This document shows, one piece after another, positions 26,153 through 62,399 of a stretch of DNA of 64,000 nucleotides (position 1 is its first letter; each line of letters starts with the position of its first letter). Made by a program: the position numbers and the translations under genes. The notes beneath the pieces are model-generated. The model saw only the letters and a program-made list of their open reading frames with translations, did not search any database and had not been told where the DNA came from. The DNA is from Pseudoalteromonas piscicida (GTDB lineage Bacteria > Pseudomonadota > Gammaproteobacteria > Enterobacterales > Alteromonadaceae), in contig NZ_CP011924.1 of NCBI RefSeq assembly GCF_000238315.3, positions 4,114,001 to 4,178,000 of the forward strand, written 5' to 3'.

Positions 26153-28456
26153 ATGACAGATCCTCAAGCCTTGTCCTTGCAAGGCATTGAACAACTTCCT
26201 ATGGGGCGTTTTACTGAAGACGCCTACCTGAACTACTCCATGTATGTGATCATGGATAGGGCGTTGCCGCATATTGGTGACGGCCTGAAGCCTGTACAAC
26301 GTCGTATTGTATATGCGATGAGTGAGCTGGGCTTATCTGCTCAAGCAAAATACAAAAAATCTGCCCGTACCGTCGGTGACGTATTGGGTAAATATCACCC
26401 TCATGGCGACAGTGCTTGTTATGAGGCTATGGTACTCATGGCGCAGCCGTTTTCTTATCGCTATCCGCTGGTGGATGGCCAAGGTAACTGGGGTGCTGCG
26501 GATGATCCTAAATCATTTGCTGCGATGCGTTATACCGAGGCGCGTTTATCTAAGTTCTCAGAAGTACTGCTGAAAGAGCTTGGCCAAGGTACGGTCGATT
26601 GGACCGCTAACTTTGATGGCACCTTAGATGAGCCACAAGTGTTACCCGCGCGTTTACCACATATTTTGTTGAATGGGGTGACGGGTATTGCGGTGGGGAT
26701 GGCAACCGATATTCCGCCGCATAACGTACGCGAAGTTGCTGAAGCTTGTTGTTTGTTATTGGATAAGCCTAAAACCGAACTAGAAGAAATTCTAGAATTG
26801 GTCAAAGCGCCAGACTATCCAACCGATGCGGAAATCATTACGCCGCAAGAAGAGATCAAAAAGCTTTACACCACAGGTCGTGGCTCAATCAAGATGCGTG
26901 CTGTGTACACCGAAGAGCAAGGCGAAGTGGTGATCACCGCGTTGCCGCACCAATGCTCGGGTGCCAAGGTGCTAGAGCAGATAGCAGCACAAATGACAGC
27001 GAAGAAACTCCCTATGGTGGCGGATTTACGTGACGAATCGGACCATGAAAATCCGACGCGTATCGTCATTGTACCGCGTTCAAATCGAGTTAAGGTCGAG
27101 CCATTAATGGCGCACCTATTTGCCACGACGGATCTTGAAAAGAACTACCGTGTTAACATCAATATGATTGGTTTAGACGGGCGTCCACAAGTTAAAGACT
27201 TGCGTCAGATTTTATCTGAGTGGTTAGTATTCCGTCGTGAAACGGTGCGTAGACGTTTGCAGTATCGTTTAGACAAAGTACTTGCGCGTTTGCATATTCT
27301 TGAAGGTTTGATGATTGCGTTTTTGAATATCGATGAAGTCATCGAAATCATTCGCAACGAAGATAAGCCAAAAGAAGAGTTAATTGCGCGTTTTGGTCTT
27401 TCAGATAAGCAGGCCGAAGCGATTCTAGACCTGAAATTACGCCACCTTGCAAAGCTTGAAGAAATGAAGATCCGTGGTGAGCAGGATGAGCTTGAAAAAG
27501 AGCGTGATGGACTGGAGAAAACCTTAGGCTCTGAGCGTCGTATGTCGACATTGATGAAAAAAGAAATCCAAGAAGCTGCTGAATTGTATGGCGATGATAG
27601 ACGCTCACCGGTAGTTGAGCGTGGTGAAGCCAAAGCGCTTAGCGAAAAGGATTTGATCCCATCAGAGTCTGTAACTGTTGTGCTATCTGAGAAAGGCTGG
27701 GCGCGTTTTGCGAAGGGCCACGATATCGATGCCGAAGGACTAAGCTACCGCTCAGGTGACAGTTATAAAGCCTCGGCCAAAGGTAAGAGTAATCAGCCTG
27801 CGGTGTTCTTAGATACCTCAGGGCGAGCCTTTGCAACCGATGCGCATAGCTTACCTTCAGCTCGGAGTCAGGGCGAGCCGATGACGGGACGCTTTAACTT
27901 GGCGTCAGGATGTAACTTTGAACATGTGGTCATGGGCGAAGAGAAATCGACTTATCTGATGGCGACTGATGGTGGTTACGGCTTTATCAGTGACTTTGCG
28001 GATATGGTGAGCAAGAACAAAAATGGTAAAGCGTTCGTTAGCGTGCCAAAAGGTGCGCATTTGATGGCACCTATCCAGGTATTTGATGTTGCCACTGATA
28101 TGTGTATGGCGATTTCGAGCGAAGGCAGAATGCTGATATTCCCGTTACGTGATCTACCTAAACTTGGTAAAGGTAAGGGGAATAAGATTATCTCTATCCC
28201 TAGCGCGAAGGTGCAAAGCCGTGAAGAGTTTGTCAAAGTATTAGCGGTAGTACCTGAAGGCGTTTCTGTTACCTTGCATGCAGGCAAGCGCAAGCTAACC
28301 TTAAAGCCAAGTGATTTAGAACACTATTACGGTGAGCGAGGACGCAGAGGTAATAAATTACCGCGCGGATTACAGCGTGTTGATAGCTATGATCTGGAGC
28401 ACAATGGTGTCGAGACACCAGAAGGTAATGACGCCAGCGCAGATACCGAAGAATAA
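26153..28456 (+). CDS. parC: DNA topoisomerase IV subunit A ParC
   Basis: The DNA breakage-reunion subunit, 767 residues. The catalytic tyrosine is Tyr127 in AAMRYTEA, and the quinolone-determining region reads [12 protein letters not shown] with Ser87 and Glu91, equivalent to E. coli Ser80 and Glu84, both in the wild-type state. The C-terminal domain with its degenerate blade repeats ([19 protein letters not shown]) binds DNA. It follows the propeller gene by 8 bases. A strong hairpin at 28464-28482 ends the transcript. Confidence 0.97.
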
Positions 28457-28463
28457 CCGATAC

Positions 28464-28490
28464 AGGCCGCCCACCGCGGCCTTATTTTTA
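28464..28490 (+). terminator. Rho-independent terminator of parC
   Basis: The stem AGGCCGC at 28464-28470 pairs with GCGGCCT at 28476-28482 around a CCACC loop, followed by TATTTTTAT. It lies seven bases after the parC stop codon. Confidence 0.85.
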
Positions 28491-28503
28491 TCTGTTGAAA
28501 ACC

Positions 28504-28521
28504 ATCGCGAGGTGAACTCGC
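28504..28521 (-). repeat. Interrupted REP-like palindrome at IS110 copy 1
   Basis: The palindrome GCGAG-GTGAA-CTCGC (28507-28521), read on the minus strand, is the hairpin part of the REP-like family seen at 51410-51906. The GTAG head that should follow is replaced by the IS end starting at 28522. The arm bases differ from those at 29670-29684 but stay complementary. Confidence 0.65.
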
Positions 28522-28537
28522 TTATATGGACTCCTCC

Positions 28538-28809
28538 AATTGTACAAGCCACTTTTAGCATTATTAGTGTGATTGCGTGCTTATATCCGGGCTCTTGATG
28601 AGGTGCTACCTCGGCCTCTTTGATGTATTCGCGCCCTTGTGCCTTCTCTCCCACGCGGTATTTGTATACACCTGCGGTTTAACAGGCTCTCAAGGGTGGG
28701 TCTCACCGCTTAATGCTCTATCTTGGCTTGTTCAATACTGGGGGTAATCTCAGTATGCTTTCTGCTTTTACGTTCTGTTTATCTTGATTTGTTCTTCTGT
28801 TACTCAGTG
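28538..28809 (-). ncRNA. Putative guide (bridge/seek) RNA region of truncated IS, copy 1
   Basis: About 270 bases between the transposase stop and the IS end hold no gene but match the equivalent segment of copy 2 without visible change. In the IS1111 subgroup a structured guide RNA is made from this downstream position. The RNA boundaries are not defined here; the assignment is by position and conservation only. Confidence 0.45.
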
Positions 28810-29534
28810 CTACGCCGCTAAGATTTTTGGCTCGTATGTTGAACCGTTTTTAAGTAAGGCATAGGCGGTTCTAACCGTTTTATTGGCCAATGCAATGGCA
28901 ACACATTTCACGCTTTTCTTGGCGAGTAGGTTTTTTATCCAGCGTTCTTTCTCTGCGGTCGCTTCTTTATGTTTTAGCCTGCTGACTACCGTTCTTGCAC
29001 CGAGAAACAGGTTTTTCCTTAATGTATTGCCTCGTCTTTTGGGGATATGACCTATCTTGGCTTTTCCGCCTGATGAGTGCTGGGTCGGTGTAACACCTGC
29101 ACATGCCGCCGCTCCTCTGGCATCACTAAATTGTGAAGTATTGCCTAAAAATGATAACAGCTCTATCGCGGTAATTGGGCCAACGCCTTCTAATGCCATT
29201 AAACGCTGGCAACTGTCATTTTGCTTGGTTATCGCTTCAACTTGTTTATGTAGTTGTGCTTTAGCGGCACATTGTGTTTTATATAGCTCGTAACTCACCG
29301 CGAGTGCTTGTTTTAATGCGATAGGGAGCGCATTTTCAGCATCTTCTAAAATATCTGGAACCGCTTGTGTTAACGCTGCATCGCCTTGATTAATGACAAC
29401 ACCAAACTCTAATAGCAAGCCACGTATTTGATTTGAAAGCTGAGTCTTTTGTTTATCTACTAAGGTTCTCGCTTGGTTCAATGACTGCAACGTTTGCTCT
29501 TCAACCGTCATGATTTTACAGGGCTTCACGTTAT
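28810..29534 (-). pseudogene. IS110 family transposase, 5'-truncated
   Basis: The remaining part encodes about the last 240 residues of the 343-residue transposase, from NVKPCKIMTVEEQTL to the C-terminus, including the Transposase_20 domain (LMALEGVGPITAIELLSFLG). The N-terminal DEDD nuclease half is lost, so the product cannot be active alone. The open frame extends to 29556 through foreign sequence (MNKAVKYN). Only a few residues differ from copy 2, for example SLNQ for SLSQ, so the two copies diverged recently. Confidence 0.85.
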
Positions 29535-29665
29535 TATATTTAACGGCTTTATTCAAGGGGATTGGACGGACACCGGACAGTTTGCGGACAATAGCTGAAC
29601 GTAACTAAAACTGGCTGTTCGTGACTTACCGCAACATCAAATTTTAGTGGGAACCACAATTAAAA

Positions 29666-29684
29666 GATCGCGGGGTGAACCCGC
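29666..29684 (-). repeat. Interrupted REP-like palindrome at IS110 copy 2, hairpin half
   Basis: GATC at 29666-29669 is followed by the palindrome GCGGG-GTGAA-CCCGC at 29670-29684. The rest of the REP (TCCCAC, which is GTGGGA on the other strand) reappears at 31087-31092 on the far side of the IS. Joining the halves rebuilds a complete REP-like unit with a GTGG head. Confidence 0.65.
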
Positions 29685-29700
29685 TTATATGGACTCCTCC

Positions 29701-29972
29701 AATTGTACAAGCCACTTTTAGCATTATTAGTGTGATTGCGTGCTTATATCCGGGCTCTTGATGAGGTGCTACCTCGGCCTCTTTGATGTATTCGCGCCCT
29801 TGTGCCTTCTCTCCCACGCGGTATTTGTATACACCTGCGGTTTAACAGGCTCTCAAGGGTGGGTCTCACCGCTTAATGCTCTATCTTGGCTTGTTCAATA
29901 CTGGGGGTAATCTCAGTATGCTTTCTGCTTTTACGTTCTGTTTATCTTGATTTGTTCTTCTGTTACTCAGTG
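29701..29972 (-). ncRNA. Putative guide (bridge/seek) RNA region of complete IS
   Basis: This 272-base noncoding stretch lies between the transposase stop and the IS end, the position of the guide RNA in IS1111-type elements. It contains TCTCCCAC at 29810-29817, identical to the target-flank bases 31085-31092. This is the kind of match expected from a target-binding loop, although eight bases could occur by chance. Several short inverted repeats are visible, but no full fold was derived. Confidence 0.5.
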
Positions 29973-31004
29973 CTACGCCGCTAAGATTTTTGGCTCGTAT
30001 GTTGAACCGTTTTTAAGTAAGGCATAGGCGGTTCTAACCGTTTTATTGGCCAATGCAATGGCAACACATTTCACGCTTTTCTTGGCGAGTAGATTTTTTA
30101 TCCAGCGTTCTTTCTCTGTGGTCGCTTCTTTATGTTTTAGCCTGCTGACTACCGTTCTTGCACCGAGAAACAGGTTTTTCCTTAATGTATTGCCTCGTCT
30201 TTTGGGGATATGACCTATCTTGGCTTTTCCGCCTGATGAGTGCTGGGTCGGTGTAACACCTGCACATGCCGCCGCTCCTCTGGCATCACTAAATTGTGAA
30301 GTATTGCCTAAAAATGATAACAGCTCTATCGCGGTAATTGGGCCAACGCCTTCTAATGCCATTAAACGCTGGCAACTGTCATTTTGCTTGGTTATCGCTT
30401 CAACTTGTTTATGTAGTTGTGCTTTAGCGGCACATTGTGTTTTATATAGCTCGTAACTCACCGCGAGTGCTTGTTTTAATGCGATAGGGAGCGCATTTTC
30501 AGCATCTTCTAAAATATCTGGAACCGCTTGTGTTAACGCTGCATCGCCTTGATTAATGACAACACCAAACTCTAATAGCAAGCCACGTATTTGATTTGAA
30601 AGCTGAGTCTTTTGTTTATCTACTAAGGTTCTCGCTTGGCTCAATGACTGCAACGTTTGCTCTTCAACTGTCATGATTTTACAGGGCTTCACGTTATATG
30701 CTTGGCTTGCACTGGCAATGGCGAGGACATCATTTGCATCAGTTTTTTGGCCTTGCCTAAACGCTTTAACAAATTTAGGGGGAAGCAACATGACATCGTG
30801 CCCCAGCGACAGCGCTTTGCGAGCAATGTGCTGGGCGCTACCACAAGCTTCCATCACGACCTTTGAACCCTCGGCTTTTGCTAGCAACTCAAGCATAGGT
30901 TCGCGTTTCATTGGCTTATTAAACTTGAGTTTATTGCCTTTCAGCTGCGCTACTTGGAAAATGTTTTTTGCCAAGTCGATAGCAATTAAATTAGACTGTG
31001 TCAT
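29973..31004 (-). CDS. IS110 family (IS1111 subgroup) transposase
   Basis: A 343-residue DEDD transposase. The N-terminal RuvC-like domain shows IAIDLAKNIFQVAQ, VVMEACGSAQH and KTDANDVLAIA with the acidic catalytic residues; the C-terminal Transposase_20 domain shows LMALEGVGPITAIELLSFLG and GVTPTQHSSGGKAKIG with its serine. The ATG at 31002-31004 (MTQSNLIAID) is the normal family start; an open extension to 31085 runs through the IS end and is rejected. These enzymes cut and rejoin double-stranded DNA guided by an RNA from the same element. Confidence 0.93.
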   Translation of the reverse strand: MTQSNLIAIDLAKNIFQVAQLKGNKLKFNKPMKREPMLELLAKAEGSKVVMEACGSAQHIARKALSLGHDVMLLPPKFVKAFRQGQKTDANDVLAIASASQAYNVKPCKIMTVEEQTLQSLSQARTLVDKQKTQLSNQIRGLLLEFGVVINQGDAALTQAVPDILEDAENALPIALKQALAVSYELYKTQCAAKAQLHKQVEAITKQNDSCQRLMALEGVGPITAIELLSFLGNTSQFSDARGAAACAGVTPTQHSSGGKAKIGHIPKRRGNTLRKNLFLGARTVVSRLKHKEATTEKERWIKNLLAKKSVKCVAIALANKTVRTAYALLKNGSTYEPKILAA

Positions 31005-31105
31005 GTATGGATTCCTTATTTGGTAAAAGTGTTTTGCAATATCTTTATACCGTACTCTCCCGTTAAGGGGGAGGAGTCCATACATCTCCCACCAATTAAA
31101 TAATG

Positions 31106-31143
31106 CTACGCAGGTGTCTGTTCAACCATTGAACTTTGCGTAG
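31106..31143. repeat. Nested hairpin beside the IS and REP
   Basis: Outer arms CTACGCA (31106-31112) and TGCGTAG (31137-31143) enclose an inner hairpin GTTCAA-CCA-TTGAAC (31120-31134). The right outer arm includes the GTAG head of the REP at 31140, so the two elements overlap by four bases. Confidence 0.5.
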
Positions 31144-31164
31144 GAGCCGGTTCACCCAGCGATC
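31140..31164 (+). repeat. REP-like element, single copy
   Basis: The 25 bases begin GTAGGAGCCGG, continue TTCACCCAGC and end GATC. They match unit 1 of the 51.4-51.9 kb array, including the single mismatch in the second arm (CCAGC instead of CCGGC). Confidence 0.7.
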
Positions 31165-31261
31165 CTTAACTTTAGAATATGGCTCCTCAAATCAAAAAAT
31201 GAAAATAAAAAGACACTATTATTGCAGCATTTTATTGCGCTTTACGTTAAAATATTCGGTT

Positions 31262-31310
31262 ATACCAATCACACAAGTGCCTATGGCTTGCAAACAATTG
31301 TAATTGGTAT
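31262..31310. repeat. Short inverted repeat ATACCAAT / ATTGGTAT
   Basis: Arms at 31262-31269 and 31303-31310 match the outer ends of the larger MITE-like element at 37043-37251. This may be a short relic of the same family. It lies just upstream of the phosphoribosyltransferase gene. Confidence 0.4.
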
Positions 31311-33149: not shown

Positions 33150-34780
33150 TATTTAAGTTCACCTGCAATCCACGTCTGCTCGACTTTAATATCATCAATT
33201 TTATCTTCGCTTACGGTAAAGTAATCTTGGTCGATTAAGATAAAATCGGCCCACTTTCCCTGTTCTAAACTTCCCAGTTTATATTCTTGAAATGCAGCAT
33301 AAGCAGCATCAACTGTGAATGCTTGTAGTGCTTGTTCTCTGGTTAGCTTTTCTGTTGGGCGCCAGCCATCTTTGGGTAAATCTTGATGGTCTTGTCTGGT
33401 GATAGCGGCATGCAGACCATGGAAAGGATTTGCAAGCTCCACTGGAAAGTCAGAACCCGCCGCCACTCTACTTCCTTGCTTTAAGAATGTTTGCCATGCG
33501 TAAGCGCCGCTAAGCTGTTTGTCGTCTAGGCGCTTTTCGGCCATATGCATATCAGATGTGGCATGAACAGGCTGCATTGATGGAATAATATCTAATGTCT
33601 TAAAGCGAGGGATATCATCCAGGTGGACAATTTGTGCGTGCTCAATGCGATTTCTGAGCAGTCTTCCACCTGCTTTTTTAAAAACGTGTTGATATGAGTC
33701 TAGCACGATGCGATTCGCTCTATCGCCAATGGCGTGCGTGTGCGCACTGTAGCCGCTGCGTATGGCTTGGGTGATCAATGCTTCAAGCGTCGCTTGGTTT
33801 TCGAGCATTAATCCTTTGTGACCTTTGCGGTCATGATAGTCGCGAATAAGTGCTGCCCCTCGGCTGCCAAGTGCACCATCAGCATAGATTTTTACACTAC
33901 GAATAGAGAGTTGATCTCGTGTATCTTTGATCACTCCGGCGTCTAACATCTCTGCGAGTTTGGGCGAGCTTGCACTGAGCATAGCGTAGACGCGCAGAGG
34001 CATTGAGTGTTCCTTGGCGCGTGTTTGGTAGACCTGCCACGTAGTGTGGTCAATCCCAGCATCATGAGCTGAGGTAATGCCTAAACTCAGCAAGTGTTCT
34101 CCGGCTTTATTCAGCGCTTTGTTTACCTGTGCATCTGACTGAGCTGGGACATGAGTACGAATAAGGTCTTCTGCCTTGTCGATAAAAATCCCGCTCGGCA
34201 TACCGCTATTCAGTGTAATGATTTCACCGCCTTCAGGCGTCTTTGTTGATTTGGAAATGTTGGCAAGAGCCATCGCTTTTGAGTTTACCCAAATAGCGTG
34301 ACCATCTACTCGAATGAGCATGACGGGCTTATCTTTTACGTATGTGTCGAGATCGGCTGCGGTTGGGAATTGTCCGCCGGGCCATAAGGTTTGATCCCAG
34401 CCTCGACCTATTATCCATTCACCTTCATGGGCTTTTGCGTAGTGGCTAAGCCGTTTTCCTACTTCTGCAATGGTTTTGCTACCGCGCACGTCGAGTGTGA
34501 GTAAATTATTGCCAAGGCCAATGATGTGACCGTGCGCATCAATTAAACCGGGCAATAGGGTTTTTCCCTCACCATCAAACTTGGTTGCACTCGGATATTG
34601 AGTACTAAGATCTTTTGAACTTGTTTTTACGACTTTACCGTCTTTAATTACCAAAGAAGAAAAGCGCTCAATTTGCTGCGATTTAGTAGGCGTATAACCA
34701 TTTACATTGTGAATTAAGGTTACTTGAGCTGTTGATGACAGGCTAAAGCTAGCCAAAAGCGCGAGGAATGTTTTTTTCAT
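33140..34780 (-). CDS. Exported amidohydrolase (YtcJ-like, Amidohydro_3)
   Basis: A metal-dependent hydrolase of the composite-domain amidohydrolase superfamily, acting on C-N bonds of an unknown substrate. A signal peptide covers about residues 1-18, GLIDAHGHIIG carries the first metal histidines, HTHAIGDRANRIVLD the later ones, and AAGSDFPVE the final aspartate. The ATG at 34778-34780 with an AAGGA site is preferred to the GTG at 34795. The 5' part of this gene, up to codon 81, is included in the 1275-bp tandem duplication, which left a truncated second copy at 35780-36055. This copy is intact. Confidence 0.88.
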   Translation of the reverse strand: MKKTFLALLASFSLSSTAQVTLIHNVNGYTPTKSQQIERFSSLVIKDGKVVKTSSKDLSTQYPSATKFDGEGKTLLPGLIDAHGHIIGLGNNLLTLDVRGSKTIAEVGKRLSHYAKAHEGEWIIGRGWDQTLWPGGQFPTAADLDTYVKDKPVMLIRVDGHAIWVNSKAMALANISKSTKTPEGGEIITLNSGMPSGIFIDKAEDLIRTHVPAQSDAQVNKALNKAGEHLLSLGITSAHDAGIDHTTWQVYQTRAKEHSMPLRVYAMLSASSPKLAEMLDAGVIKDTRDQLSIRSVKIYADGALGSRGAALIRDYHDRKGHKGLMLENQATLEALITQAIRSGYSAHTHAIGDRANRIVLDSYQHVFKKAGGRLLRNRIEHAQIVHLDDIPRFKTLDIIPSMQPVHATSDMHMAEKRLDDKQLSGAYAWQTFLKQGSRVAAGSDFPVELANPFHGLHAAITRQDHQDLPKDGWRPTEKLTREQALQAFTVDAAYAAFQEYKLGSLEQGKWADFILIDQDYFTVSEDKIDDIKVEQTWIAGELKYQR

Positions 34781-34888
34781 TATATTGTCCTTCACTGAGA
34801 GTGTTTATTCAGAATAATCATCTAACTCAATAAAGCCAAGTCTTTGAGTTGAGAGTATACTTGAGTTTTAAAGGAGTGGAGTGTCAAA

Positions 34889-35779: not shown

Positions 35780-36055
35780 TTAATTAAATGAGCTATTTGA
35801 AGCGGAGGAATAGTCAATTAAACCGGGCAATAGGGTTTTTCCCTCACCATCAAACTTGGTTGCACTCGGATATTGAGTACTAAGATCTTTTGAACTTGTT
35901 TTTACGACTTTACCGTCTTTAATTACCAAAGAAGAAAAGCGCTCAATTTGCTGCGATTTAGTAGGCGTATAACCATTTACATTGTGAATTAAGGTTACTT
36001 GAGCTGTTGATGACAGGCTAAAGCTAGCCAAAAGCGCGAGGAATGTTTTTTTCAT
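35780..36055 (-). pseudogene. Truncated amidohydrolase gene, copy B
   Basis: The ATG, signal peptide and first 81 codons are identical to the intact gene at 33140-34780. At the duplication junction (35813/35814) the frame enters unrelated DNA and ends after a short tail beginning DYSSAS. The metal-binding histidines are missing, so no enzyme can be made, but the promoter and ribosome site are duplicated and a short exported peptide may be expressed. Confidence 0.9.
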
Positions 36056-36163
36056 TATATTGTCCTTCACTGAGAGTGTTTATTCAGAATAATCATCTAA
36101 CTCAATAAAGCCAAGTCTTTGAGTTGAGAGTATACTTGAGTTTTAAAGGAGTGGAGTGTCAAA

Positions 36164-51322: not shown

Positions 51323-51938
51323 ATTGATGATGTCGAGATAAATCTCGACCTACGCGTCAATATTACAAATGGGATATAAAACTATACTTACCAGAAATAA
51401 ATAACCCATGTAGGAGCCGGTTCACCCAGCGATCTTGATGCTTTTACCGCGATATAAAACCATACCTACCAGCAATAGAAAAGTAGGTGTAGGAGCCAGT
51501 TCACCCGGCGATCTTGATGCTTTTACCGCGATATAAAACCATACCTATCAGCAATAGATAACCCGTGTAGGAGCCGGTTCACCCGGCGATCTTTACGCTT
51601 TTACCACGATATAAAACCATACCTATCAGCAATAGATAACCCGTGTAGGAGCCGGTTCACCCGGCGATCTTGATGCTTTTACTACGATATAAAACCATAC
51701 CTACCAGCAATAGAAAAACAAGTGTAGGAGTCGGTTCACCCGGCGATCTTTACGCAGTTACCGCGATATAAAACCATACTTACCAGCAATAGAAAAACAG
51801 GTGTAGGAGCCGGTTCACCCTGCGATCTTTACGCAGTTACCGCGATATAAAATCATACTTACCAACAATAGAAAAGCAGGTGTAGGAGCCGGTTCACCCG
51901 GCGATCTTTATGCTTTTCCGGCATAATACCAACACTAC
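51323..51938. other. Repeat-filled intergenic region
   Basis: The 616 bases between the TatD-family gene and the thioesterase gene are almost entirely occupied by the tandem REP array (51371-51928). No gene is present. Confidence 0.7.
51371..51928 (+). repeat. Tandem array of seven GTAG-REP-like units, period 78-79 bases
   Basis: Units beginning GTAGGAG start at 51410, 51489, 51567, 51645, 51724, 51803 and 51882, spaced 79, 78, 78, 79, 79 and 79. Each has a 25-base REP (GTAGGAGCCGG-TTCAC-CCGGCGATC, hairpin GCCGG/CCGGC) and a conserved 53-54 base linker containing GATATAAAACCATAC and CAGCAATAGA. A partial linker precedes unit 1. The GTAG head with an adjacent palindrome is the form known for REP elements of Pseudomonas and enterics mobilised by RAYT transposases. 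Units 1, 2 and 6 have one arm mismatch each. Confidence 0.85.
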
Positions 51939-52667
51939 TTAAGCCAATTGTTGATTAATAATGGAGATCATCTCATCAGCGTATTGGTGAATAAAAAAGT
52001 GCCCACCGGCAAATTCGGTAATCTGGTATGGCTGTGTCGTTAGCTCTTGCCACGCAATAACATGTTCATTCAAGATCTCATCATCAACGCCATGGAAAAC
52101 ATGGATGGGGATGGGTAATGCACACTGTTCTGCTACATAGGTATCTGCTATTTTAAAGTCAGCTCGGAGCAACGGGAGTAATAGCTCCATAAGCTCTTTA
52201 TTTTCAAGAACTTCTTTTGGCGTACCATTTAAGTCACGAAGCTCAGCAATAAATTCATCGTGTGGTAAGCCATGTAAATGAGACTTAGTTGAGGTGCAAT
52301 GTGGTGCACGACTCGCAGAAGCAAATATTTTACGTGGAGTAGGCAAGCCTGCGTCTAACAATTGAAAAGCAAGCTCATATGAAATGCGACTACCAAGACT
52401 ATGTCCAAAAAACGCGAAAGGCTTACTGGTCATATAGTCTTTGTGTACCATGAGTTCAGAGATAATATCCGGCATGTTGTCTATTGCTGGCTCTACCAGT
52501 CGAGCCCCTCTCCCTGGAAGCTGCACAAAAACGAGCTCAACAAATTCACTTGTTTTATCGATCCAAGGCGTAAATATAGCTGGTGAACCGCCAGCATAAG
52601 GAAAGCAAAATAACCGCAACTCAGCGTTTGGATTGGGTTTTGGGGTAATAAAAAGTTTACTATTCAT
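51939..52667 (-). CDS. Type II thioesterase (alpha/beta hydrolase, GrsT-like)
   Basis: A 242-residue thioesterase of the type that clears misloaded carrier proteins in NRPS/PKS systems. It has LFCFPYAGGSPAIF at the N-terminus, the nucleophile in FFGHSLGSRISYEL, the aspartate in HGVDDEILNEH and the histidine in GGHFFIHQ. No NRPS, PKS or carrier gene is within this window, so it is an orphan here. It borders the REP array on its 3' side and ytjB on the other, with 69 bases to the latter. Confidence 0.88.
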   Translation of the reverse strand: MNSKLFITPKPNPNAELRLFCFPYAGGSPAIFTPWIDKTSEFVELVFVQLPGRGARLVEPAIDNMPDIISELMVHKDYMTSKPFAFFGHSLGSRISYELAFQLLDAGLPTPRKIFASASRAPHCTSTKSHLHGLPHDEFIAELRDLNGTPKEVLENKELMELLLPLLRADFKIADTYVAEQCALPIPIHVFHGVDDEILNEHVIAWQELTTQPYQITEFAGGHFFIHQYADEMISIINQQLA

Positions 52668-55842: not shown

Positions 55843-55927
55843 TACTACTAGTTCAAGTCGTTATCTGCGCGACAATTCTTAAGTCGATACGAGCCATGGA
55901 GGGATGTTTGATATGTCCTCCAGAAGG

Positions 55928-56455
55928 TTTCGACGCCCATCCATGGGCTACGACTACCTTTTCTTTAATGCCCAAAGAATCGTTGTGCAAAGGAAAGGGC
56001 ACTCCCAACATCACACTGACTCCTCAAGTAAATTGCCAATATGAACGTCACCGCGGTGTAAGGGCCATCCTTGGCCCTGTCACCGCTTTTCACGCATCCA
56101 TGCGTTGAAATGACTCATTGGCAATTTACTTTCGGGTGTGATGAGGGAGACACAAGGCGCTGATAAATTCTTGTGGTGCTTGCAAGCAACTATGTTTCTG
56201 ATGGCTTTGTGGACAGCTAACAGACAACTTATTTCCCCCTCCATCACACCCGAAAAGCATAAGCTGATATGCAATGTGCCGACAGGATGTCGGCCAAGTC
56301 TTGTCTGGCATCATGGACGTGCCTTACAAGACGGTTGCACTATGTCGGCTTAGGATTTGAGGATTAAGTGTGATGCTGGGGCGACGTTTTCTTGGTTCGT
56401 TCTTTTTCGTCGTTTAAAAAGAATGAACGAGGATCGCATGGATGCGCTTTGATAT
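55928..56455. repeat. Large noncoding repeat, copy A
   Basis: The element starts TTTCGACGCCCATCCATGGG and ends GATGCGCTTTGATAT. Its two blocks, 55928-56163 and 56231-56455, are shared with copy B at high identity, while the segment between them differs. Hairpins include GCCCAT-CC-ATGGGC (55935-55948), GCCGACA-GGA-TGTCGGC (56278-56294) and CGCAT-GG-ATGCG (56435-56446). No gene is present. Confidence 0.75.
56009..56143. repeat. Three-way-junction-like structure in repeat A
   Basis: CATCACAC (56009-56016) with GTGTGATG (56136-56143) and AGTAAATTGCCAAT (56027-56040) with ATTGGCAATTTACT (56117-56130) form a long outer stem. Inside lie two hairpins: GCGGTG-TA-AGGGCCA-TCCT-TGGCCCT-GT-CACCGC (56053-56086) and ACGCAT-CC-ATGCGT (56092-56105). 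Copy B has the same layout at 56612-56746. Confidence 0.7.
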
Positions 56456-56530
56456 TAAACATGGAGGTTTATTTTGCTAACGGCTGATAGCTCGAAATTT
56501 ATCGTAAAGTCAGCCCGTCCTCCTGACTGG

Positions 56531-57224
56531 TTTCGACGCCCATCCATGGGCTACGACATACTTTTCTTTGATGCCCAAAGAACAAGTAAGCAAAAGAAAG
56601 GGCACTCCCAACATCACACTGACTCCTCAAGTAAATTGCCAATATGAACGTCACCGCGGTGTAAGGGCCATCCTTGGCCCTGTCACCGCTTTTCACGCAT
56701 CCATGCGTTGAAATGACTCATTGGCAATTTACTTTCGGGTGTGATGAGGGAGATACAAGGCGCTGATAGTTTTGTTTGGTGCTTGTAGGAAAATTAGCTG
56801 CTTTTGAGAGAAAAACTAGAACTTGCAGTCAATACTAATCCCCCTTTACCACACCCGAAAAACATAACAGCCCGGCGGGTAAACCACCTCCCACAAAACG
56901 ATTTAGACTGTTAATTAGGAGTTCACACCGATCGTTTTTGTGGTGCTTGTAAGCTAATTAGCTACTTTACTGGATAAAACCAGAACTAACAGACAGCGCG
57001 ATTTCCCCCTCCATCACACCCGAAAAGCATAGCTGATATGCAATGTGCCGACAGGATGTCGGCTAAGTCTTGTCTGGCATCATGGATGTGCCTTACAAGA
57101 CGGTTGCACTATATCGGCTTAGGGTTTGAGGATTAAGTGTGATGCTGGGGCGACGTTTTCTTGGTTCGTTCTTTTTCGTCGTTTAAAAAGAATGAACGAG
57201 AAGCGCATGGACGCGCTTTGATAT
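56531..57224. repeat. Large noncoding repeat, copy B
   Basis: Blocks 56531-56769 and 57002-57224 match copy A; the middle (56770-57001) is longer and contains an extra partial repetition of the TTGTGGTGCTTG and CACACCCGAAAA words (56780-56870 and 56935-57030). The junction structure recurs at 56612-56746 and the hairpin GCCGACA-GGA-TGTCGGC at 57047-57063. It ends about 220 bases before vgrG. Confidence 0.75.
56612..56746. repeat. Three-way-junction-like structure in repeat B
   Basis: Same arms as in copy A, displaced by 603 bases: CATCACAC at 56612, the 14-base arms at 56630-56643 and 56720-56733, and GTGTGATG at 56739-56746, enclosing the same two hairpins. Confidence 0.7.
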
Positions 57225-57446
57225 CCGCCAAGGAGGGTAAGCTGACACCGTTTTCATTTGGCTTGAGATTTAAAAACAGTCCGTTACACCAAAAGATAAG
57301 CATTCGAATGCTGAGTAAAAAAATGAGTTAAAAATGCTTGCCTTTTATGTAACAATAGCGCGCAAATAAAAACCAATCGCAGCACACTAGGAAGTAGTAC
57401 CGCGTATTGGTGGAACGGCTTTAACCAACAACAGTGGACATAAAAA

Positions 57447-60400
57447 ATGCAAACAAGGATTGTGGTGTATGGTACTAACCATCCTGTACATGTCGTCGAT
57501 TTTGAACTCACGACCTGTATCAATCGCGGCTTTTTACTCAAAGCGAACCTAGAATCCCAATTTGACCTGGCTGATGAGTTACTTGTCGGCAATATGCTCA
57601 CGTTTGAAATTGAGTCACCAGATGCAATATCGACGTATTTCACTGGGACTTTGTTTGATATCCAATCTGGTTTTGTGTCTGAGCACACTTGTGGTGCAGA
57701 GGTGGTCTTAAAGCCTCGCCTTGAGTTACTTAAGCAAACTGAAAAAAGCCAAATCTTTGTACAAGCCAATGTTCAGTCTGTCCTCAATAAGCTGATACAA
57801 AAAGCCGGCTATTCACAAGACCGGATAAAATGGCGAGTCACTAAAGATTTACCCACGCTACCGCAGTGCGTACAAGCGCTAGAAAACGACTACACCTTTT
57901 TCACCCGACTCTTAGCAAAGTACGGCTTAATTTATTGGTTTGAATGCCATGATTTTATTGAGTCGATAGTGATTGCCGAGGGAAACCTTGCAAGCCCCTA
58001 TATTGAGCGAGGCTTACTGTCGGTGACGGATAAAGATAGCCTGGTTCACGAACATGAAACCGGCTTTGTTGGGTTTACGCAGTGCCAAAGCCGCCATCGT
58101 TTTAGAATGGGTGGCTCACAAGTGCATGTGAATGCCCATCCGCCAACCTCGGTCAGCTCGGCGCAGCGTAGCTATTTTGAACCTGCGGCACAAAATCCCG
58201 CTGAGCAATTTGAGCGCACCGGCAATCTCGAGCTTGCCTATCAACAAGGTAAAAATGAAGTCACGCTGGTAGGAAACGTAGCCGAAGCCAATGCTGGTTA
58301 TTCGTTTTCGTTAAATGGTAAATTGGGCACAGCGAAAGGTGGCGATTATACCTGTATTCGCAGTAAACAGATTTATAAGCAAGGCAGTGCCAATGACCCT
58401 AAGCAAGTTGCATATCATAGCGAGTCGGTTTGTGTACCACGGGGTGAGCCAATACGTATCGCGCCCCCAGAGCATAGCCCAAAACCGATGGTGTTTACCG
58501 CCACGGTACGTTCGCTGTCAGGGTCAAAGGCCAATCCTCATGTCGATACACAAGGGCAATATGCCACGCAAGTACATTTTGATAGTCAGGTGACCGAGTC
58601 GGTCAAGCGCCTCACACAATATGTCTGTCGCGGCCAAAAGCAGCCGACGGGGTTACATTTTCCACTGCTGCCAGACAGTAATGTGCTCATCGGTTGCATG
58701 AACAACGACCCAGACCAAAGTTACCTGTTAGGCTTTGCCCTTAACGACACCCAACCGTCGGTTGTTACCAGCGCCAATAACGCCCAAAACGTGTTGTGCT
58801 CTCGCGGCCAAAACCTGTTGATGTTTGATGACACCCCAAATACCCCGCATATTGTGTTGCAAACCTTAGCGGGCAACCAGCACTTGGTGTTACATGGGGA
58901 TAAAAAGCAGCCTTACATTCACTGGCTTGCGCAACTTGGCGCGATGAACATTTTTGCAGCCAAAGACATCCAACTTGGCAGTGTTAAAAGTGCAATCCGA
59001 CTACTCACCAATAAAACCTTTATTGCCAGCGCCAAACAACAACTGGCACTGGAGAGTAAAAAGTCAGTCATTGCCGATGCAGCAACCAACCTAGACGTCA
59101 CCGCCAATCAAATAGACGTCAGCGCCACACAAAATATCACCCTTAAGGCGGGTCGCAGCCATCGCGGTGTTATCCAAAGTGATATCAACCTCAAGGCAGA
59201 CAACAACCTTACCATCACCGCCCCGGCGGGAAGTCAAATCATTCAAAGCCAAGGCAATATCACGATTAAAGGCAGTGGCTCTGGCAACCTCACCCTTGCC
59301 AATGGCGGCAGTGAAATCAGTATTGACTCAAGTGGTAACGTCAACATCTTTGCAGACAAGTTACTGACCTTAAAAGGCAAAGCCATGACTGTGTTTGACG
59401 GTAGCATGGAGCAAGATATTGGTGGTAAACAAAGCGCCACGATGCCGAGTGTACCGCAAATTCAAGCGCTGTCTGAAAATGCTCGACTCTCACTGGCCGC
59501 CGATGGCATTGCCACCATGATGAGCAGTACCATTGAGTTGTCTTATACCTATCAAGATGGCAGCCCAATTATGGGCGCACCTTATATCATTCGATTTGCA
59601 AACGGCACAGAGTTGACTGGTAACTTAGATGACAGCGGTAAAGCAAAAATTGATAATGCACCGCCTGGTCAATACACCGTGCAATATGGTGAGGATAAAC
59701 GCGATTACCTACCAGAAGATAATCGCCCTAAAAACCCTCTGTATGGACAAATCACCCCAGCGCAAGCGGCTGAAATGGTACGCAGCGGTAATACCGCACC
59801 ACTGATAGAAGCCAACGGCATTGCAACCCAAGCAGGTGATTGGTTATGGGGCACACTACAAGGCGACTTTAATCAAAACCCCTCCACGTCACAAATCGTG
59901 GTAGGTACCTTAATTTCCATGATACCAATTATCGACCAAGTCATGGATTTACGAGATATCATTGCCAATGTCATGTTACTGACCGACGATGATGAAGCCA
60001 ACGACACCGACGCTTGGCTTGCTTTTACCCTAACGGGTATTGGTTTAGTGCCAGTTGTGGGCTCAGCGGTCAAAGGCGTAGGCAAGGTTATCTTAAAAAA
60101 TACCGGAGAATCCCTCTCTGCTGCGCTTGCAGTTTTACGCAAGCTCGGTAAAGGCGACCCAGTTAAATACCTAAGAGACATCAACTGGCAAGACCTAGGA
60201 AAACAATCCGCCACGGAAGTTAAAAACATCGTCAAAGGCCTGCGCGATTCACTTGATGACATGTCTAGCAGTTGGCACTACGACCTACTGCTTCCAGACG
60301 CCGCCATCGAAGGCATGCAAGCCACGGTTAAACGCCTAGACGACGTCACCCCAAAAATCGACCAACATATGCAACAAGCCGCCCAAGAAATCGGACAGCG

Positions 60401-61076
60401 AGTTAATAAAGCACTGGATGAGTATCAAGGCCAACCACCAATTCGAGGCGTTACCGACAAGCCCACCAAAGCCAAAGCCGATGAGTTGGAACCACCAAAA
60501 GGGAATGAGTTGCCGGGATCTGCAATAAAACGTATGCCGCAATACAATGTGCCTTGTTTTAAAAAGAATGCCAAAGGAACCGCTGTTGAATATGACCGCC
60601 AATTAAAAGGACAAATGGACGGGCTAAATAGCATGACAGTAAAACAGTATCTTGAAAATCGCGATGCTTATAAAAAGATTGGAAGAAAAGGAACTGGAAA
60701 GGCGCAAAAACAGGCTAGAGAAGAATTCAGAGAGCACCTGATAAGAAAATACGAAAATGACTTCATTTCTAAAGGGGAATATTTTGGTGAAGAGGCACTT
60801 GAGAAAGCCAAAGAGCTAGCAAAGAAGGATATGAAAACTCTTCATGCGTTACATAACCCTGATATGATAGCGGGAGGGTTAGATGAGATCGTTGATTTAG
60901 GTGACGCTAGCGTCAACCAATCTATTGGCGCACGATGGAATAAAAAAGGTTTTGATGACTCAGGTAAAAAGACTACGTTAAGTCGTGTCGAGCTAATGGA
61001 TAATGAGGCAGAGAAAGCGCTAAAAGCATTAGGTCCGGATGCAAAGTTAAATATGAATCTACATAGGTGCAAATAA
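57447..61076 (+). CDS. vgrG: T6SS VgrG with C-terminal Ntox15 (Tde1-like) nuclease toxin
   Basis: A 1209-residue specialised VgrG, the tip of the type VI secretion spike. The gp27-like part covers about residues 1-380 and the OB/gp5 part about 385-450 (TGLHFPLLPDSNVLIGCMNN). The DUF2345 beta-helix follows at about 470-640, then a transthyretin-like module at about 695-750 and a hydrophobic stretch at about 816-880 (VVGTLISMIPIIDQVMDL, TGIGLVPVVGSAVKG) typical of pre-toxin regions. After LPG near residue 1024 comes the toxin tip with His1136 and Asp1139 in LHALHNPDMIAGG, the HxxD motif of Ntox15/Tde1 DNases. The cognate immunity gene overlaps the stop (TAATG). No other T6SS genes are visible. 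Confidence 0.92.
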   Translation: MQTRIVVYGTNHPVHVVDFELTTCINRGFLLKANLESQFDLADELLVGNMLTFEIESPDAISTYFTGTLFDIQSGFVSEHTCGAEVVLKPRLELLKQTEKSQIFVQANVQSVLNKLIQKAGYSQDRIKWRVTKDLPTLPQCVQALENDYTFFTRLLAKYGLIYWFECHDFIESIVIAEGNLASPYIERGLLSVTDKDSLVHEHETGFVGFTQCQSRHRFRMGGSQVHVNAHPPTSVSSAQRSYFEPAAQNPAEQFERTGNLELAYQQGKNEVTLVGNVAEANAGYSFSLNGKLGTAKGGDYTCIRSKQIYKQGSANDPKQVAYHSESVCVPRGEPIRIAPPEHSPKPMVFTATVRSLSGSKANPHVDTQGQYATQVHFDSQVTESVKRLTQYVCRGQKQPTGLHFPLLPDSNVLIGCMNNDPDQSYLLGFALNDTQPSVVTSANNAQNVLCSRGQNLLMFDDTPNTPHIVLQTLAGNQHLVLHGDKKQPYIHWLAQLGAMNIFAAKDIQLGSVKSAIRLLTNKTFIASAKQQLALESKKSVIADAATNLDVTANQIDVSATQNITLKAGRSHRGVIQSDINLKADNNLTITAPAGSQIIQSQGNITIKGSGSGNLTLANGGSEISIDSSGNVNIFADKLLTLKGKAMTVFDGSMEQDIGGKQSATMPSVPQIQALSENARLSLAADGIATMMSSTIELSYTYQDGSPIMGAPYIIRFANGTELTGNLDDSGKAKIDNAPPGQYTVQYGEDKRDYLPEDNRPKNPLYGQITPAQAAEMVRSGNTAPLIEANGIATQAGDWLWGTLQGDFNQNPSTSQIVVGTLISMIPIIDQVMDLRDIIANVMLLTDDDEANDTDAWLAFTLTGIGLVPVVGSAVKGVGKVILKNTGESLSAALAVLRKLGKGDPVKYLRDINWQDLGKQSATEVKNIVKGLRDSLDDMSSSWHYDLLLPDAAIEGMQATVKRLDDVTPKIDQHMQQAAQEIGQRVNKALDEYQGQPPIRGVTDKPTKAKADELEPPKGNELPGSAIKRMPQYNVPCFKKNAKGTAVEYDRQLKGQMDGLNSMTVKQYLENRDAYKKIGRKGTGKAQKQAREEFREHLIRKYENDFISKGEYFGEEALEKAKELAKKDMKTLHALHNPDMIAGGLDEIVDLGDASVNQSIGARWNKKGFDDSGKKTTLSRVELMDNEAEKALKALGPDAKLNMNLHRCK

Positions 61077-61765
61077 TGAACAAATTTTTTGACAATTTTT
61101 ATCACTATAAGGGCTTTGGACCAGCTATAAAGTCGATCCTACCAACCCCAGAGCAGCTACGATTCTACCAAGGCGTTTTACCTGACAACCTGCTTGAGTA
61201 TTGGGAGAAGTACGGCTTTTGTGGTTGGGGAGATGGGCGTCTGTGGATAGTCAACCCAGCAGACTATCAAGATCTTTTGACTGAATGGTTGAAAGGAACT
61301 CAGTTCGAAATAATGCAAAATGAAGGCATCGATATTTTTTCTGTCATTGCGATAGATGCGTTTGGTAAAATGTGCATTTGGGGCAAAAACTCTGGTTACA
61401 GCTTAAAAATAACAAGTAACTATGGAATGATTTTTCCAATGTTTAATAATGAGTTTTATACTCAAAATGGAGCATCTAAATCACTAGATCTATTTTTTGC
61501 TACTCAAAGCCCAAAAGCCGAAATTGATCTAAAAGATCACAATGAAAAACCTCTTTTTGAACGTGCTGTCGAAAAGCTAGGCCCTCTTGAAAATGGAGAA
61601 ATCTATGGCTTCGTGCCAGCTCTTGCCCTTGGTGGCGAACCTAAGCTTGAGAATCTCCAAAAGGTAAAAGCCACGGAACATTTAGCTTTCTTAGCGGACC
61701 TTGGAGAGAAGCGTGTTATGGCCGATATCGTTGCGCTATCTAACCAATTACCCCATAACCAATAG
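61076..61765 (+). CDS. Tdi1-like T6SS immunity protein (GAD-like/DUF1851)
   Basis: A 229-residue protein starting at the ATG that overlaps the vgrG stop (TAATG). The N-terminal GAD-like region contains LPDNLLEYWEKYGFCGWGDG and VNPADYQDLL; the C-terminal DUF1851 region contains LFERAVEKLGPLENGEIYGF and PALALGGEPKLENLQKVKA. This pair of domains is that of Tdi1, the antitoxin of the Tde1 DNase. It should bind and block the Ntox15 tip of the preceding gene in the producer's cytoplasm. Confidence 0.88.
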   Translation: MNKFFDNFYHYKGFGPAIKSILPTPEQLRFYQGVLPDNLLEYWEKYGFCGWGDGRLWIVNPADYQDLLTEWLKGTQFEIMQNEGIDIFSVIAIDAFGKMCIWGKNSGYSLKITSNYGMIFPMFNNEFYTQNGASKSLDLFFATQSPKAEIDLKDHNEKPLFERAVEKLGPLENGEIYGFVPALALGGEPKLENLQKVKATEHLAFLADLGEKRVMADIVALSNQLPHNQ

Positions 61766-61801
61766 CACTTTTTTAAGTCCTTTAAATGCATAGATGTTGT
61801 G

Positions 61802-61829
61802 AGGCTAGGTTCAATCGTCTTCCTAGCCT
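61802..61829. terminator. Hairpin after the first immunity gene
   Basis: AGGCTAGG (61802-61809) pairs with CCTAGCCT (61822-61829) around a 12-base loop, 36 bases beyond the stop codon. It would end the vgrG-immunity transcript and leave the next cassette without that promoter. Confidence 0.6.
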
Positions 61830-61958
61830 ACATTTCTCACCACATTTCTTCTGCTGCTTTCATTTACATTTTTAATTAAAGAAACCACGGTAGCTAACTT
61901 TCAAGTGCTTTATTGAGATAGCGTGCAGTGATAAATAAGGATCCAAGACATATCACAA

Positions 61959-62399
61959 CGTAGGTAAGGCCATCTTAAAAATACTGGAGAATCCCTCTCT
62001 GCTGCGCTTGCCGTTTTACGCAAGCTCGGCAAAGGCGACCCAGTTAAATACCTAAGAGACATCAACTGGCAAGACCTAGGAAAACAATCCGCCACGGAAG
62101 TTAAAAACATCGTCAAAGGCCTGCGCAATTCACTCGATGAAATGTCTAGCAGTTGGCACTACGACCTACTGCTTCCAGACGCCGCCATCGAAGGCATGCA
62201 AGCCACGGTAAAACGCTTAGACGAGGTCACCCCAAAAATCGACCAGCATATGCAACAAACCGCCCAAGAAATCGGGCAGCGAGTTAATAAAGCACTGGAT
62301 GAGTATCAAGGCCAATCACCAATTCGAGGCGTCACCGACAAGCCCACCAAAGCCAAAGCTGATGAATTGGAGCCGCTAAAAGGGAATGAATTGCCGGGA
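61959..62399 (+). repeat. Partial copy of the vgrG 3' trunk
   Basis: The 441 bases match vgrG positions 60077-60518 (442 bases) at very high identity. One A is missing in the run after ATCTT (61971-61981), which shifts the frame relative to vgrG at that point. Similarity ends on both sides abruptly, on the right after the codons for LPG, exactly where the toxin tips become different. Confidence 0.85.

Follow-up and report, generated by a model that had tools for sequence, protein, structure and literature searches.

The window analysed here is a stretch of 64,000 nucleotides from the genome of Pseudoalteromonas piscicida (G000). It carries a complete IS1111-type element, a partial copy of the same IS and, beside them, the halves of interrupted REP sequences. 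The features of the locus are as follows.

28507-28522, plus strand: REP hairpin half of the native target, GCGAG-GTGAA-CTCGC (28507-28521), with CT core (28521-28522); the first unit of the IS-free array in the relative G071 is similar
28523-29530 (end approximate), minus strand: partial IS (copy 1), the RE-side part alone, without about the first 100 transposase residues
28575-28715: predicted seekRNA region of copy 1, intact, guide at 28648-28654
29531-29685, no strand: 155-bp segment identical to the C1 1.0-Mb locus, with a foreign REP hairpin half at its end
29531-29534: TTAT microhomology (4 bp) at the segment junction
29670-29684: foreign REP hairpin half, GCGGG-GTGAA-CCCGC, with CT core at 29684-29685
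29686-31085, minus strand: complete IS1111-type element (copy 2), 1400 bp core to core
29691-29700 and 31070-31079: subterminal inverted repeats (sTIR) of the complete IS, GGACTCCTCC and GGAGGAGTCC
29738-29878, minus strand: predicted seekRNA (bridge RNA) region, 3' of the transposase gene (tnp), with covarying structure
29811-29817, minus strand: predicted B guide GUGGGAG, i.e., REP head strand plus AG core
29835-29846, minus strand: predicted T guide region GUUAAACCGCAG, hairpin side matched in part
29973-31004, minus strand: transposase gene, 343 amino acids, PF01548 and PF02371, GVTPTQHSSG motif
31086-31092, plus strand: native target REP, CT core (31086-31087) and head, CTCCCAC

The assignment to IS1111 draws on the DEDD transposase profile, with PF01548 and PF02371 both above cut-off, on the 10-bp sTIR and on a non-coding region (NCR) of 291 nt downstream of tnp, the side on which it lies in IS1111 elements according to the available text of PMC11187229. 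The order of the predicted seekRNA matches also agrees, the top-strand match being 5' of the bottom-strand match, with the T match weak in the window clade. The IS110 group (IS621-like elements) has its RNA at the other end, upstream of tnp, and a short sTIR, whereas the NCR here is downstream and the sTIR is 10 bp long. Elsewhere in the window there are direct repeats, e.g., a 300-nt pair that is 100% identical (34539-34838 and 35814-36113) and starts in an amidohydrolase-like gene, and others (families D4-D6, at least 92% identical) at 55926-57236 and 60096-62276.

Origin of the two IS copies

Both IS copies have their first base directly after CT, the C of which is the final base of the palindrome (28521-28522 and 29684-29685). 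The preliminary description had placed GCGAG-GTGAA-CTCGC before copy 1, GCGGG-GTGAA-CCCGC before copy 2 and a REP head, TCCCAC at 31087, beyond the second IS end, and all three are where it had put them, the CT core on that side being 31086-31087. It had also held that the target of copy 2 can be rebuilt from that copy's own two sides, and that the two target sites were independent and not a duplication; both proposals fell on comparison with the C1 1.0-Mb locus. Window positions 29531-30092 (562 bases) are identical to a stretch at about 1004320-1004881 of that locus, a match that takes in the left REP half of copy 2 together with the preceding 139 bp, which at the 1.0-Mb locus run on into a different, native upstream sequence. 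The 1.0-Mb locus, like the window, has a partial IS copy (about 1017 bp) and then a full one. The full copies of the two loci agree at every one of their 1400 bases, and at three of four variable alleles the partial copies agree with each other against the full ones. On its head side copy 1, a partial copy, has no flank.

In G071, which at 95% over the parC query was the closest relative found, the window locus carries REPs of the ATCGCGAGGTG type in an IS-free array, the first unit of which is like the left flank of copy 1 and the last like the right flank; GATCGCGGGG was not seen there in the 750 bases inspected. The G071 heads at this locus read CTGCCAC, CTACCAC and TTCCCAC, without CTCCCAC among them, and the array is therefore not a base-for-base empty site.

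Because of the 562-base identity, the identical full copies, the headless partial copy 1 and the IS-free G071 array, the window locus is to be read as a single REP insertion that was rearranged afterwards, and the proposal of two independent target REPs as wrong. Since the left REP half of copy 2 is foreign and the end units of the G071 array resemble the outer flanks, the native target consists of the left half at copy 1 (28507-28522) and the head after copy 2 (31086-31092). As the simplest reading we infer a tandem duplication followed by recombination within the IS. The window copy would derive from a single guided insertion into a REP; the duplication would have arisen at the 1.0-Mb locus and reached the window through recombination inside the IS, so that the window gained a partial copy and a foreign REP half, and about 125 bp would later have been lost at one of the two loci (window or 1.0-Mb). 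Two separate insertions into two adjacent REPs, as first proposed, would explain why each of the two IS ends follows a different REP half. This is nevertheless extremely unlikely, given that copy 2 shares its left REP half and the preceding 139 bp with a locus of the same partial-plus-full order, that the full copies are identical and that copy 1 lacks a head-side flank. In copy 1 (28523-29530) the transposase lacks its N-terminal part, but the predicted seekRNA region is intact, and the copy could therefore supply guide RNA in trans.

REP targets and their supply

The motif RTRAANNNNCTSCYAC occurs 223 times in G000, the window's genome, compared with 13 times for a reversed-pattern control. 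Its copies have a short palindrome with a constant head, are numerous and form arrays. As to a possible link with a REP-associated tyrosine transposase gene, two genes match PF01797; one (C1:3980721) is flanked by inverted REP pairs, but these are of the CTGCTAC type, and the other has no REP within 1.5 kb. The REP family is genuine, since arrays occur. The heads CTCCCAC, CTCCTAC and CTGCYAC, the last counted by subtraction, number 25, 99 and 99 in G000, 83, 140 and 103 in G072, 41, 122 and 85 in G075, and 37, 88 and 114 in G034. The window itself contains seven CTCCTAC-head REPs in an IS-free array on the minus strand (51373-51954, spacing about 79 bp) and a single CTCCTAC REP at 31140-31160, about 55 bp from the IS, all of them unused T heads beside an element with a C-reading guide.

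The G000 inventory comprises three full and two partial IS copies, a 319-bp deletion derivative and a solo end, the last two on C2. Beside the hairpin-side IS ends, a REP hairpin half is found at the same point and in the same orientation in 7/7 places. The derivative (C2:622986-623315; L006/L007, L011) is internally deleted, retains both ends and lies in a REP array; with its guide and transposase gone, it is possibly a non-autonomous passenger or the product of deletion in place. The solo end (C2:114131-114177; L008) adjoins a REP hairpin half.

The transposase was found at E ≤ 1e-90 in 13 of 108 genomes of the genus, G000 included. In the close clade, 14 copies from four genomes have both ends and a guide (three in G000, one in G034, which is P. 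flavipulchra, seven in G072 and three in G075); all of them interrupt REPs at the CT/AG core in one orientation, and position and orientation are equally fixed in the REPs of a 74% sister lineage (3/3). The REP-specific targeting with fixed orientation that the preliminary description had suggested is thus supported. More distant relatives, which carry other guides, lie in non-REP sequence. The CT/AG core occurs once in IS-free sites and on either side of the inserted IS, and the sequence past the head differs from site to site. Two further elements are a single IS end beside CTCCGAC, with its guide gone (L049, G034), and a 58% relative whose flank reads TTAGGAG with no clear REP (L054).

Uninterrupted REPs in IS-free strains, which the same description had named as support, were found at part of the places compared. 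For four G072 insertions, 8/16 orthologous places (G000, G034, G071, G075) show the REP unbroken, with exact GTAGGAG and a single core (L060 in G034; L067 in G071; L070 in G000, G071 and G075; L072 in G000, G034 and G075); six of the others are REPs with altered head or core, and two (L067 in G034 and G075) have no REP. The insertion at 53 kb corresponds to an uninterrupted REP in 3/4 close relatives (G071, G072 and G075, not G034). These three read CTCCTAC, whereas G000 reads CTCCCAC beside the IS, so that either the REP differed beforehand or the head changed. Repeated units surround the 1.0-Mb site, and one of them reads GATCGCGGGGTGAACCCGCTCCCACC in G072; the corresponding place in G034 has CTCCTAA.

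The predicted guide RNA

The genus search gave 31 matches, of which 27 were kept. Three duplicates were dropped (L050 = L044, L052 = L045, L062 = L042), together with L049 (one end, no guide), the partial copies L071 and L073 and one partial G072 match without a locus. The order-level search gave 16 matches, of which nine were tested; three from G000, L137 and L146 (no ends) and L144 and L149 were dropped, the last two having no anchor, so that the rule below is inapplicable to them. Some copies with damaged transposase genes are still counted among the resulting 36 elements (27 + 9): L069 and L053 contain stops, and L042 measures 1292 bp rather than 1406. The 319-bp derivative, its guide deleted, is outside the 36, although its head counts in the G000 total given below; a head side is lacking in the solo end.

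At offset -22 from a downstream anchor, GCGARNACAT (relaxed for L139, L141 and L151), the non-coding region contains the B guide, seven letters that repeat the head strand and the core. This offset gives the best left-flank match among 294 positions in 31/36 elements and ties for best in the other five. The 36 elements contain ten guides (GTGGGAG, GTAGGAG, GTAGCAG, TCAACAG, TTCCTAG, AAACAAG, ACCGCCG, TTTCGCG, TTTTGCG and AAAAGCG), and the five pre-core letters match in full in 29/36. Summed over elements, 170/180 of these letters match the element's own flank, against a mean of 67.8 and a maximum of 149 for permuted guides (0/20000 as high); without the close clade, the figures are 101/110 and a permuted maximum of 87. 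The rule was first spotted by eye in genus-level copies, and the nine order-level elements were examined later; both the -22 offset and the T offsets (12-14) were picked after part of the data had been seen.

Upstream of the B guide, the T guide matches the other flank at 253/324 letters, against a maximum of 202 in 5000 permutations. The match is 5-7 of 9 in the window clade (n = 14), where the guide has CA and not CT at the core, and 6-9 of 9 in the others (n = 22). The weak T guide of the clade may be read as the price of variable hairpin arms, the specificity then coming from the constant head; the two T-guide variants of G072 had no clear link to the hairpin arms.

A 17-sequence alignment, from which the RNA structure was both derived and scored, has 97.3% of cells paired against 83.6 in shuffles. 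Compensated changes on both sides occur in 11/22 pairs (6.3 in shuffles), and 46 cells have two-sided changes (10.6 in shuffles), with 0/500 shuffles as high on these measures; with the partner slid by 1-3 columns, pairing is at most 46.4%. The single-sequence fold is weakly better than its shuffles (z = -1.58; 15/200 as good), and the structural evidence is carried by the alignment, not by single-sequence folding. An Rfam scan of window positions 28400-31300, at E up to 1, matched no family.

More distant relatives in non-palindromic targets follow the same guide rule. Among these related elements, L145, L151 and L150 (G259 and G203; two in one genome) have one or both guides and flanks differing in step, and they would represent a compact natural re-direction outside REPs.

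Choice of REP subfamily and its explanation

The preliminary description had stopped at the REP as target, but the element goes further and separates REP subfamilies by head sequence. GUGGGAG and GUAGGAG elements have transposases that are 97-99% identical and differ by one B-guide base. Copies with GTGGGAG (G000, G034 and G075; n = 7) lie six times in CTCCCAC and once in CTCCTAC, and those with GTAGGAG (G072; n = 7) all lie in CTCCTAC (Fisher test of 6:1 vs 0:7, P = 0.0047). Relative to supply, the G guide takes C heads over T heads about 17-fold, as estimated from seven insertions. In G000, with the deletion derivative, all four readable heads are CTCCCAC, a type that makes up about 13% of the REPs on offer (uniform choice, P = 2.7e-4), and the 7/7 of G072 gives P = 0.0033; G075 alone (2/3, P = 0.078) and G034 alone (1/1, P = 0.16) are not significant. 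These P values come from small numbers and assume that copies and REPs are independent of one another. The exception is L048, with guide GTGGGAG and target GTAGGAG, a mismatch that would fit an rG-dT wobble. The 74% sister lineage has the guide GTAGCAG and 3/3 CTGCTAC targets; CTCCCAC and CTCCTAC REPs are almost absent from its hosts, so guide and supply are inseparable there. In a tree of 20 rows, built from the element minus its last 300 bases, the forks are open between GUAGG and GUGGG ancestry.

Because the subfamilies are split by head, and the other guides of distant relatives accompany non-REP targets, specificity appears to track the guide and not the palindrome as such. It is very probable that the element is a Pseudoalteromonas IS of the IS1111 type and that a seekRNA (bridge RNA), encoded 3' of the transposase gene, reads its target; we propose this because of the fixed position in the REP, the covarying RNA, the B guide that matches the flank over ten types and the one-base split of subfamilies. 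The predicted seekRNA, with T then B guides, would choose a REP by head plus core, and the IS would enter at the CT/AG core, with the hairpin on one side and the head on the other, in a single orientation.

That the transposase might instead recognise the REP hairpin itself, as a cruciform or single strand, with an incidental guide match, is suggested by the palindromic nature of every clade target and by the poor fit of the clade T guide to the hairpin side. We consider this very unlikely, since REPs with other heads, equally palindromic, are avoided within one genome and the guide rule also holds for relatives in non-palindromic targets. It is very unlikely that the head is carried as part of the element end, guide and flank being co-inherited. 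The 53-kb site, with its different heads in G000 and relatives, would be expected in that case, yet the GTAGG head and one core are already present in exact IS-free sites for each of the four G072 insertions (at least one each), the head of L048 is unlike its guide, and the sequence beyond the head varies among sites.

IS621 has a CT core and REP targets, and the P. putida REP sequence presumably resembles the target REP here. All copies of ISPpu9 and ISPpu10 in Pseudomonas putida lie in REPs at one position, and ISPa11 is also a REP-targeting IS with a fixed position (PMC1525189, available text); a two-base direct repeat, AG for ISPpu9, is given in the accessible part of PMC8450116. The element described here is like ISPpu9 and ISPpu10 in its REP insertion at one position and its two-base repeat and, going by their descriptions, differs in its genus and in that REP subfamilies are told apart by elements carrying different guides. 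As far as the text available from PMC11187229 goes, IS1111 elements (ISPa11, ISEc11, ISKpn4 and ISPst6) are guided by seekRNAs, ISEc11 needs the flank match for excision, ISEc11/ISXne4 is a natural re-direction, and ISMch6 is re-directed relative to ISEc21 by three altered bases. Our element shares with these four the sTIR, the NCR downstream of tnp and the T-then-B seekRNA matches, and with ISPa11 the REP target; for ISPa11-type systems, transcripts, binding and transposition have been demonstrated, whereas ours is known from sequence alone. The published re-directed pairs are 72% identical in transposase, in contrast to the near-identical elements here, which are one B-guide base apart. In the IS621/IS110 group, RNA loops pair with target strands and the ncRNA covaries with the target (PMC11208160, available part), both of which are predicted here.

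Neither REP-targeting IS1111 elements of Pseudoalteromonas nor bridge RNA wobble was found in a literature search at title and abstract level with partial coverage. The seekRNA/bridge RNA mechanism, REP targeting and natural re-direction are already known; what the sequences analysed here would add is a new genus, a one-base split between near-identical elements, a fixed-position rule and a possible wobble intermediate.

By a simple rule, the seven RNA letters that precede GCGARNACAT at a constant distance would reveal the target of an Alteromonadales IS1111 element of this kind. Elements that are nearly identical, in related hosts each having all three REP subfamilies and with sites tracking the guide, amount to a natural experiment at single-base resolution, which bears on guide specificity in vivo and on target change with the flank match for excision preserved, and is thus relevant to bridge RNAs as tools. 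More tentatively, and on balance doubtfully, wobble could be a bridge by which IS1111 elements change target and keep their mobility. GUGGGAG would read CTCCCAC by Watson-Crick pairing and CTCCTAC by rG-dT, so that a copy in a CTCCTAC REP (as L048) may mutate its guide from G to A with its own flanks still matched, and the mutated copy would found a lineage confined to CTCCTAC REPs. If this is true, guides would drift along a path, tolerant in one direction, through the REP subfamilies of the host, coupling the evolution of the IS to that of the REPs.
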